NCBI RefSeq assembly: GCF_000956175.1
Contig: NZ_CP011070.1
Location: 1,606,147-1,670,146 of the forward strand
Length of the DNA stretch: 64,000 nt
Source of the DNA: Nitrosopumilus adriaticus
Lineage (GTDB): Archaea; Thermoproteota; Nitrososphaeria; Nitrososphaerales; Nitrosopumilaceae
Direction: 5' to 3'
In this document: piece after piece, positions 13,618 through 58,866 of the stretch
Layout: each line of letters starts with the position of its first letter
How positions within the stretch are numbered: the stretch's first letter is position 1
Notes under the pieces: generated by a model
The model's database searches: none
Seen by the model: the letters and a program-made list of their open reading frames with translations, nothing else
Told to the model about the DNA's origin: nothing
Program-made: the position numbers and the translations under genes

Positions 13618-14166
13618 TTAATCGTGTGCGTGTGGGTTTTCAGAACCAGATTTCATAATTACATATGTTCCGGCTGCTTTCTCGTGCCATTCTTGGTTAG
13701 CTGATTCGATACGAATAGCTCCTTCAGGACAGATTTCTTGACATGCCATACAAACTGTACAATCGTGTTCTCTGATTGGTTGTGATTTGTCTGTATAATC
13801 TAATCTTTCATCTTGTTCTGTTAGGCCAGTTCCTTCAAAAGTTTCTCCCATTACTTTATCTGCTGGAATATCTTTTTCGGTTCTGTACCATTGGAATGTT
13901 TGTACTGGACATACACTCATGCATGAACCAGCGGCTACACAGGAATCCCAATCGACTGCAACAGTAGTTCCATGAATTCCAAGAGGAACTTGTTTTTCTC
14001 CTCTTGCTTCATAGGCTGCTTTTACATCTTCATTTGAGAATGCTGCACCATCAGTTCTTCCCTCACCCCAAATCCAGTGGAAATTCTCACCATCTGCATG
14101 GCTTGTTTTTCCCTTTGGTTTTACATCGTTGTGACAAAAGTCTTCTGGTATTTGTAGATCTGCCAT
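13618..14166 (-). CDS. Zinc-containing 7Fe/8Fe-type ferredoxin (copy 1)
   Basis: A 182-residue dicluster ferredoxin of the thermoacidophile (Sulfolobus) type with an N-terminal extension. Cluster I motif CVAAGSCMSVCP has C76, C82, C86; cluster II CTVCMACQEICP has C136, C139, C142, C146. His at 12, 23 and 30 in the extension are candidate zinc ligands. In Sulfolobus and in copy 2 an Asp sits between the first two cluster I Cys; here it is Ala79. The likely role is as electron carrier for 2-oxoacid oxidoreductases and carbon fixation. A paralogue lies 98 bp upstream on the same strand. Confidence 0.92.
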   Translation of the reverse strand: MADLQIPEDFCHNDVKPKGKTSHADGENFHWIWGEGRTDGAAFSNEDVKAAYEARGEKQVPLGIHGTTVAVDWDSCVAAGSCMSVCPVQTFQWYRTEKDIPADKVMGETFEGTGLTEQDERLDYTDKSQPIREHDCTVCMACQEICPEGAIRIESANQEWHEKAAGTYVIMKSGSENPHAHD

Positions 14167-14264
14167 AATCAGACTACCTCAAAATATTATTTAAATCTAG
14201 ATATAATTAGTCGAGACTAAATAAAAAATAATAAAAATTTCTAGATATAATCGGTCTTGAAATT

Positions 14265-14798
<534 letters not shown>

Positions 14799-22517: not shown

Positions 22518-22705
22518 ATTGGATTAGATGTGGTTTTGTGTATTTAACACAATTAGGCAATTAGCAAAAATGATTCTAAAATTGATTATGGGAGATAATA
22601 GAAATCATGAATTAATGTACATCTGTATGATTAAAAAATTAATAATAAACAAATGTTAAGATTTTATACAGAACTCTTTAAATTTTATTTTTGCACAACT
22701 AGAAT

Positions 22706-22832
22706 AACGAGGTCTATCATATCTGCCGAAATTCAAAAGGAGAAATTTGAGGAGGTGGACAGGTAGTAAAAAAGGAAAACACGAAAAAAGATGGAAGCAT
22801 CTAGAATTCGTAGTTTTCCAGTATACCTCGTT
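22706..22832 (+). ncRNA. Structured RNA element A (three-helix junction)
   Basis: AACGAGGT (22706-22713) pairs with ACCTCGTT (22825-22832). Inside, CTGCC (22723-22727) pairs with GG-A-CAG (22757-22762) above a 5-bp AAATT/AATTT stem. A second arm pairs GGAAAAC (22774-22780) with GTTTTCC (22813-22819), ACGAA with TTCGT and AGATG with CATCT around a GAAG loop. A TATA box (ctttaaatttta, 22676-22687) sits 25 nt before the first paired base. Closely resembles element B at 58765. Function unknown. Confidence 0.6.
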
Positions 22833-22904
22833 TCCTATTTCGTAATAAATCACCTTATAGATTTTAAAGCAAATACTTAGATTTGTTGTAGAATCCAAAA
22901 TAAT

Positions 22905-23134: not shown

Positions 23135-24607
23135 ATGAATGGTTTATTGTATGGAGTAATTTTTATAATTTTTTTGTTTTCAATACCTGTAGCACTTGCT
23201 CAAGAATATCATGATCTTGGAGTGAAAGTGGACATAGTAGCTGACAACCTCACTATCCCATGGAGTATTGATTGGTTACCTGATGGGACCGTCATATTTA
23301 CAGAAAGAAACGGACACATCAGAATTATTGAAAATGGAACACTGTTGGATGAGCCCATATTGTCACTTGGTGTTGGAGGAGTTGAAGGAGGAATGTTAGG
23401 AATTGCAGTGGATCCAAAATTTGAAGAAAATAATTTCATCTATATCTATTATACATACAATGAATTTTTATCAACAATAAACAAACTTGTTAGATTTCAA
23501 TTTACAGATGGAGAATTAACAGAAGATAAAATATTACTTGATGGAATTCCTGGCGGGCCATTTCATGATGGAGGAAGAATTCAATTTGGCCCAGATGGAA
23601 AATTATACATTACAACAGGGGAAGCAGGAGATCCAAAATTAGCTCAAGATCTGAATTCGTTAGGCGGAAAGATTCTAAGAATTAATTCTGACGGAACAAT
23701 TCCTAATGATAACCCATGGAAGAATTCTCCGATTTATTCAATTGGCCATAGAAATCCTCAAGGGATTGATTGGGATGAATCTGGGAATTTGGTTGCAACA
23801 GAACATGGACCATCAGGATGGAGAGGAGTAGCCCATGATGAGATTAATGTGATAATTTCAGGTACAAATTATGGCTGGCCAGACATAATTGGTGATGAAA
23901 CATCAGAGGGATTGCAAAATCCTATCCTGCACACAGGTGATGATACATGGGCACCATCAGGTGCAGAGTTCTACTCTGGAGATAAAATCCCTGACTGGAA
24001 AGGGAAATATTTTGTGGCTACACTCAGAGGAAGTCATCTTCACATGATAGAGTTTGATTTAGAAAATAACTTGGTTGTCTTACACCAAAAACTATTCCAA
24101 GATGAATTTGGAAGACTACGTGATGTGCAAACTGGACCTGATGGGTTTTTGTACATCCTTACAAGCAATCAGGATGGTAGAGGATTTCCAAATCCTAATG
24201 ATGATAAAATTTTGAGAATATCTCCATTAGATACAATCAATAGTTTTGAGGAGTGTGCCGAATCTGGAAATCCTATAATGGAATCATATCCAAGACAGTG
24301 TAGAACTGAAGATGGTAAACATTTTGTCGAAATAATTTCTAAAATTCCTGAATGGGTTAGAAATACTGCAAAGTGGTGGTCATTAAATCAAATATCAGAT
24401 AACGACTATTCATCAGGACTCCAATATCTTTTAGAAAATAATATCATTTCAATGCCATTTGGAACAACATTTGAAGGAGACTCTGAAGAGGAATTACCAT
24501 CATGGTTACGAAAAGATGCTGGATGGTGGAGCCAGGGATTAATATCAGATGAAGAGTTTTTCAAAAACATTCAATGGATGATAAATAACGGATTCATCAA
24601 AATCTAG
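23135..24607 (+). CDS. Secreted PQQ-type sugar dehydrogenase with two C-terminal Trp repeats
   Basis: 490 residues. Signal peptide (1-22, ending ALAQ). A six-bladed beta-propeller of the soluble aldose/glucose dehydrogenase (GSDH) class follows: LTIPWSIDWLPDG, FHDGGRIQFGPDGKLY, GHRNPQGIDW, TEHGPSGWRG, DEINVIISGTNYGWP. Known relatives oxidise sugars with pyrroloquinoline quinone and Ca. The C-terminus adds two units of the pattern PxWxRxxAxWWxxxxISDxxF (IPEWVRNTAKWWSLNQISDN and LPSWLRKDAGWWSQGLISDE). No PQQ synthesis genes are adjacent, so the cofactor source is open. Confidence 0.85.
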   Translation: MNGLLYGVIFIIFLFSIPVALAQEYHDLGVKVDIVADNLTIPWSIDWLPDGTVIFTERNGHIRIIENGTLLDEPILSLGVGGVEGGMLGIAVDPKFEENNFIYIYYTYNEFLSTINKLVRFQFTDGELTEDKILLDGIPGGPFHDGGRIQFGPDGKLYITTGEAGDPKLAQDLNSLGGKILRINSDGTIPNDNPWKNSPIYSIGHRNPQGIDWDESGNLVATEHGPSGWRGVAHDEINVIISGTNYGWPDIIGDETSEGLQNPILHTGDDTWAPSGAEFYSGDKIPDWKGKYFVATLRGSHLHMIEFDLENNLVVLHQKLFQDEFGRLRDVQTGPDGFLYILTSNQDGRGFPNPNDDKILRISPLDTINSFEECAESGNPIMESYPRQCRTEDGKHFVEIISKIPEWVRNTAKWWSLNQISDNDYSSGLQYLLENNIISMPFGTTFEGDSEEELPSWLRKDAGWWSQGLISDEEFFKNIQWMINNGFIKI

Positions 24608-58552: not shown

Positions 58553-58602
58553 GTAGATCTTATTTCATTATACTTTAAGAACTGCCTGATACTAATAGAA
58601 TC

Positions 58603-58698
58603 ATGGAAGACGTTGGGCAAATAGTTATGATTGCCTTAATAATAGGAGCTGTTGGGATTTTTGTTGGTTCTAGAATTTGGATGCTTTTTAGAAAATAG
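58603..58698 (+). CDS. 31-residue single-helix membrane microprotein
   Basis: ATG to TAG encodes MEDVGQIVMIALIIGAVGIF then VGSRIWMLFRK. One hydrophobic helix flanked by acidic and basic ends. It lies 66 bp before RNA element B on the same strand. Unknown function. Confidence 0.5.
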   Translation: MEDVGQIVMIALIIGAVGIFVGSRIWMLFRK

Positions 58699-58764
58699 TT
58701 TGACGTGTTAGCATCAGGTAAAAATTCTGAACAAAGTTAAATATTATTTTGACGTATATATCAT

Positions 58765-58866
58765 AACGAGAAACCGTCATTCTGCGTAGTAGAATGGCAG
58801 GTTTGGAAAACAATTCATGTTATAGAAATCGTTCCTAGATTCTATGTTTTCCAAGAATTTCTCGTT
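58765..58866 (+). ncRNA. Structured RNA element B (three-helix junction)
   Basis: AACGAGAAA (58765-58773) pairs perfectly with TTTCTCGTT (58858-58866). The first inner arm pairs CCGTCATTCT (58774-58783) with AGAATGGC-A-GG (58791-58801). The second arm pairs TTGGAAAACA (58803-58812) with TGTTTTCCAA (58845-58854) and continues as ATAG-A-AATC/GATTCTAT around a 7-nt loop. A TATA box (gttaaatatta, 58736-58746) sits about 25 nt before the first paired base. Sister of element A at 22706. Confidence 0.65.

Follow-up and report, generated by a model that had tools for sequence, protein, structure and literature searches.

Nitrosopumilus and its relatives are among the most abundant marine ammonia oxidizers, and no published trans-acting RNA regulator was found for them in the open-access literature searched. 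In bacteria or eukaryotes, small structured RNAs such as 6S, Y RNA and CsrB serve as scaffolds or decoys. Among archaeal small RNAs, sRNA162 of Methanosarcina mazei contacts mRNAs via two separate domains (PMC3510493). Here we describe two elements, A and B, of the marine ammonia-oxidizing archaeon Nitrosopumilus adriaticus; they are apparently paralogues, each a stand-alone gene whose product is a small, structured, non-coding RNA. Both lie in a stretch of 64,000 nucleotides (contig NZ_CP011070.1, positions 1,606,147 to 1,670,146), hereafter the window, to which all coordinates refer.

Comparison with catalogued RNA classes

When 4227 Rfam 15 families were compared with the window, only four tRNAs reached the gathering score, and neither ARAGORN nor Rfam placed a tRNA or tmRNA at A or B. 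With E values up to 5 admitted, the regions of A and B gave weak matches only, far below gathering; 5S rRNA matched at neither setting. Fourteen homologous loci of several types were also without a match at the gathering score. A first-pass annotation of the sequence had held that neither element is a tRNA, a 5S rRNA or a known riboswitch, and at the Rfam gathering score no such match exists. The open-access literature searched yielded no description of this RNA family which, being absent from Rfam, standard annotation would miss.

Fold and promoters of the two elements

A and B each form a three-way junction composed of a closing helix (P1) and two arms (P2 and P3; Table 1). Their fold energies are -40.4 kcal/mol for A (shuffled mean -20.3, z -6.6) and -35.4 kcal/mol for B (shuffled mean -17.6, z -5.7), and no shuffled sequence equalled either. 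The closing helix AACGAG/CTCGTT, remarked upon in the first-pass annotation, is present in both elements, and its positions 7 and 8 do differ in a compensatory manner (A has G-C at position 7 and T-A at position 8, B has A-T at both). The pattern AACGAGN{80,110}CTCGTT, expected 0.01 times in the window, was found once, at B; the P1 spacing of A, 115, lies beyond the range of the pattern. The GGAAAAC/GTTTTCC arm was likewise located in both elements, and a third hairpin of this kind in the same genome, at 47271, lacks P1 and is not a member. The CAGGT-like string noted in front of this arm does occur in A and B. As a conserved unit it did not hold up, since it is merely the 3' strand of P2 and reads AGATAG or GATAGGT in relatives, and a functional CAGGT motif was dropped for this reason.

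Table 1 Features of RNA genes A and B and their promoters in the window
Feature	Position	Strand	Sequence	Evidence or remark
Box A (TATA-like) of A	22678-22685	+	TTAAATTT	First T 28 nt before P1
RNA A, A type, three-way junction	22706-22832	+		Fold, covariation, homologues, scaffold-model match
A, P1 5' strand	22706-22713	+	AACGAGGT	Partner 22825-22832; fold, covariation
A, arm P2	22714-22766	+	CTATC...GGTAG	Internal loop, distal helix TTCAAA/TTTGAG; fold, covariation
A, arm P3	22774-22819	+	GGAAAACACGAA...TTCGT.GTTTTCC	Fold, GGAAAAC/GTTTTCC search, covariation
A, P3 tip hairpin	22789-22802	+	AGATG-GAAG-CATCT	Innermost pair covaries (A-U 10, G-C 9)
A, P1 3' strand	22825-22832	+	ACCTCGTT	Fold, covariation
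A, T/C-rich 3' tail	22833-22845	+	TCCTATTTCGT	Conserved in many A-type relatives; putative function
Promoter of B	58729-58756	+	GAACAAAGTTAAATATTATTTTGACGTA	Consensus GATCAttgTTAAATATnATTTTGACGTA; first T of box at 58737, 28 nt before P1
RNA B, B type, three-way junction	58765-58866	+		Fold, covariation, homologues, scaffold-model match
B, P1 5' strand	58765-58772	+	AACGAGAA	Partner 58859-58866; fold, covariation
B, arm P2	58773-58802	+		Covariation
B, P2 tip	58781-58793	+	TCTGCGTAGTAGA	Nearly invariant over several genera; alignment
B, arm P3	58805-58852	+	GGAAAAC...GTTTTCC	GGAAAAC/GTTTTCC search, covariation
B, P3 internal loop	58816-58822	+	CATGTTA	Invariant; alignment
B, P1 3' strand	58859-58866	+	TTCTCGTT	Fold, covariation

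According to fold prediction the CATGTTA of B is only partly unpaired, with mean probabilities of 0.43-0.74 across the motif. Its AUG, invariant in the B-type RNAs, might start a small peptide, making B a very short mRNA or a dual-function RNA. This is highly improbable given that the frame closes after two codons in the B of the window (ATG TTA TAG) and varies in length between relatives, and that A has no counterpart of this AUG.

The TATA box claimed earlier for each element is present, the first T of TTAAAT lying 28 nt ahead of the first P1 base in A and B alike. Of 132 distinct elements, 117 have their best upstream match to TTAAATA at exactly this distance; for 95% it falls within 27-29 nt, as compared to 6% in shuffled upstream sequence. 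For two leaderless protein genes of N. adriaticus that carry a similar box, the distance to the start codon is 28-29 nt; these genes lie behind near matches to the B promoter pattern and were used solely as a calibration of the spacing. Archaeal box A elements are situated approximately 26 nt before the start site, so the spacing places the predicted start of transcription at about the first base of P1, and the fixed distance, as in leaderless mRNAs, indicates that A and B are probably each a transcription unit of their own. The T/C-rich tail that follows P1, conserved in most A-type RNAs, is probably the 3' end or a termination region.

Conservation of the B promoter reaches well past the box. 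Its use as a regulon marker was rejected, the pattern with up to three mismatches being no commoner than in the control. A B-like promoter, TTAAATAATATTTTGAGGTA, was seen at 14175-14194 on the minus strand before the leaderless gene 13618-14166, whose product is probably a 4Fe-4S ferredoxin-like protein and which adjoins a paralogue at 14265-14774.

Covariation and coding strand

In the alignment of 19 A-type sequences, 97.6% of the 756 paired cells hold standard pairs, a fraction that falls to 40-47% when the partner strand is slid by 1-3 columns. Changes on both sides occur in 8 pairs (shuffled mean 4.0); for instance, the pair that tops the lower helix of P2 is U-A in 11 sequences and C-G in 8. 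The 30 aligned B-type sequences show 97.8% standard pairs and both-sided changes in 8 pairs, against a shuffled mean of 1.2. Across the paired cells G-U was counted 239 times and A-C 6 times, from which it follows that the product is an RNA read from the plus strand.

The same excess bears on the idea that A and B are DNA elements, either miniature transposons or palindromic repeats, bounded by terminal inverted repeats. Their ends are inverted repeats, and a genome can hold as many as four copies at separate sites. However, helices that keep G-U 40 times more often than A-C are not what a palindromic DNA element would display, and the conserved promoter lies outside the element, on one side only, at a fixed 28 nt. 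Near-identical dispersed copies, as expected of a MITE, were not found; the genome of N. adriaticus holds only two divergent elements, which have no DNA-level match to each other. Viral contigs contained neither of two exact B patterns, and a single A-motif match in a tailed-phage contig, being without covariance-model support, is a chance hit and not a member, so that viral spread was dropped. We regard the DNA-element explanation as effectively refuted.

Homologues and distribution

A DNA-level search of 95 genomes of the genus gave A matches in 47 and B matches in 68, some of them short. Covariance models made from the aligned homologues and run on 250 genomes of the family detected B-type RNAs in 88, including 67 of the 95 Nitrosopumilus genomes. 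The corresponding counts for A-type RNAs are 64 and 42. One of the 88, with an E value of 0.058, was judged by inspection not to be a member. In a set of 350 genomes from the order, matches were confined to 76 genomes of this one family, spread over 5 of 65 genera. Records bearing the B hairpin come from Nitrosopumilus and Nitrosarchaeum. Where present, the RNAs number 1-4 per genome, with up to four B copies, similar to each other, in some species. The B type was undetected in about 30% of Nitrosopumilus genomes, some of which are incomplete.

Homologues with compensatory changes had been set beforehand as the test of the earlier proposal; more than 100 related elements were found, with double-sided changes in eight pairs each for A and B.

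A and B as members of one family

A BLAST search with either element does not return the other, nor, in this genome, does the covariance model of either type recover the other. Two sister genera carry further types, several of which are matched by both the A and the B model. Besides an A-like type whose P2 is short, they comprise the provisional types C, D and E; P1 is the same in all of them, and the P3 base and the P2 base (CTGTC/GACAG or close) are similar. The sequence CTnTCATAnCTGC on the 5' side of P2 is common to A and B. A scaffold model (R3) was built from a seed of 17 sequences that included the A of the window and no Nitrosopumilus B. In the window it recovered A (E 2.3e-15) and B (E 4.4e-10), the next best match having an E value of 0.31, and it found no further members in the genome. 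Recovery of both elements by a model whose seed holds no Nitrosopumilus B shows that they belong to one family, as had been proposed from the two copies. In addition, the change at P1 position 7 is fixed by type across genera, with G-C in 11 of 17 sequences (A-like) and A-U in 6 of 17 (B-like). We are in very little doubt that this is a genuine RNA family that had not been catalogued.

Counting a provisional type F, the types that share the scaffold and differ in their arm tips were seen at eight loci of the two sister genera, and up to three RNA types occur in one sister-genus genome.

Genomic neighbourhood

The content of the flanking genes varies between species, gene names being read from translations with no family search. 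By such names, A is often near a uracil-DNA-glycosylase-like gene and B near several unrelated genes. A riboswitch, attenuator or other cis-acting leader is recognized by a constant position ahead of one class of gene, on the strand of that gene. For 135 elements, the next downstream gene is on the same strand in 72 cases and convergent in 63, and its identity changes. In the window, a response-regulator gene convergent with B ends 16 nt beyond it. The changing neighbours and the mixture of strands point to action in trans rather than as a cis leader. The placement that could suggest a leader is that of an A-type RNA about 35 nt before a same-strand gene for a PQQ-dependent sugar dehydrogenase (genomes G071 and G008). 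Considering also that no Rfam riboswitch matched, a leader function is largely refuted and, in our estimation, very unlikely.

Several relatives have the A-type RNA ending at this short distance from the sugar dehydrogenase gene, whose product is predicted to be secreted. The PQQ-type sugar dehydrogenase gene starts at 23135 in the window; elsewhere the neighbour of A differs. In G008, G071 and G044, the A and B genes are divergent and about 2-3.5 kb apart. Four A/B pair loci were noted, including that of G053, where A and B stand in tandem at a distance of about 340 bp; in the window 36 kb separates them. A possible gene for a 31-residue membrane peptide (58602-58697, MEDVGQIVMIALIIGAVGIFVGSRIWMLFRK) closely precedes B on the same strand.

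Target searches

Guide RNAs of the H/ACA and C/D kinds are numerous in archaea, and a guide that acts on rRNA was considered for A and B. Complementarity to rRNA did not exceed chance in nine of ten segments. The exception is the A-type tail (22833-22848, consensus TTTCCTATTTCGTTT), which can pair over 15 nt with 23S rRNA around position 360 at -17.9 kcal/mol (-17 to -18 kcal/mol for tails of A-type RNAs). As this is one of 20 tests and the tail varies between species, we do not claim the pairing as a function. Neither box C (RUGAUGA) nor box D (CUGA) was seen in the sequences or alignments, no canonical K-turn was apparent by eye, and no H/ACA or C/D family of Rfam matched at the gathering score. 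An H/ACA identity is unlikely, and we see very little prospect that A and B are guide RNAs of either kind acting on rRNA.

For the conserved loop of B, a search of its own genome for extended antisense targets returned only the element itself (29 matches versus 29 in the control); short seeds are beyond the reach of this search.

Proposed mode of action

The observed family, fold, strand and independence from neighbouring genes are best explained by trans-acting small RNAs built on a shared protein-binding scaffold, a reading that we favour with moderate confidence. The RNAs, about 102-140 nt long, would be transcribed from an archaeal box A promoter starting at the first base of P1. They adopt a three-way junction consisting of P1 (RACGAGR/YCTCGTY), a P2 with a CTGTC-type base and a P3 with a GGAAAAC/GTTTTCC base. 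P1 together with the bases of P2 and P3 would provide a constant scaffold, most likely bound by a putative common protein. The arm tips differ by paralogue, the sister genera adding at least three types to A and B. Each type has conserved loops of its own, such as CAUGUUA and UCUGCGUMGUAGA in B. When exposed, these loops may contact an RNA or protein target in trans and so adjust gene expression. This reading is preferred because the genes stand alone, are patchily present, have paralogues and have diversified arms. The patchy presence, the 1-4 copies per genome, the diversified arms and the restriction to a single archaeal family also suggest a regulatory rather than a housekeeping role.

The main rival is a scaffold or decoy RNA comparable to 6S, Y RNA or CsrB, whose junction binds a single protein, either to sequester or to position it, and which does not base-pair with targets. 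It is in accord with the negative antisense search, with the several similar B copies in some species, and with the structured nature of the most conserved parts, namely P1, the base of P3 and, above all, the hairpin UCUGCGUMGUAGA at the P2 tip of B, which is near-invariant in several genera. That the RNAs went undetected in other families, and in some 30% of the Nitrosopumilus genomes, speaks against an essential general factor, and the arms diversify between types; we consider this alternative rather unlikely. The loops of B, near-identical in all copies, are no less compatible with a single target or a protein ligand than with base-pairing.

It is also conceivable that the family constitutes a lineage-specific RNA-protein system with a constant scaffold, a dedicated RNA-binding protein and exchangeable tips, each type having its own target. 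If true, this would be an archaeal counterpart of chaperone-dependent small RNA networks, and nothing similar was found for ammonia-oxidizing archaea in the open-access literature searched. The defined promoters, strand, start point and conserved loops make RNA-based regulation in Nitrosopumilus and its relatives directly testable.

Comparison with known systems

A and B resemble 5S rRNA in size and in overall topology, with two arms and a closing helix meeting in a three-way junction; they differ from it in having no Rfam 5S match and in being present in zero to four copies per genome. With the H/ACA and C/D guides they have in common that they appear to be small stand-alone archaeal RNA genes, but they show no C/D boxes, no canonical K-turn by eye, no Rfam match and no convincing complementarity to rRNA. 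The likeness to 6S, Y RNA and CsrB consists in a compact structure whose closing stem and structured loops are conserved, as would suit a protein ligand, although A and B match none of the three in Rfam at the gathering score. Archaeal small RNAs of the sRNA162 kind (PMC3510493) are similar in that they are transcribed from their own genes, as A and B putatively are, and in that action is thought to occur away from the locus of origin; the tips of P2 and P3 might contact targets in the way that the two domains of sRNA162 do. In contrast, Methanosarcina belongs to another phylum, and A and B share a common three-way-junction scaffold that occurs in several paralogous types.
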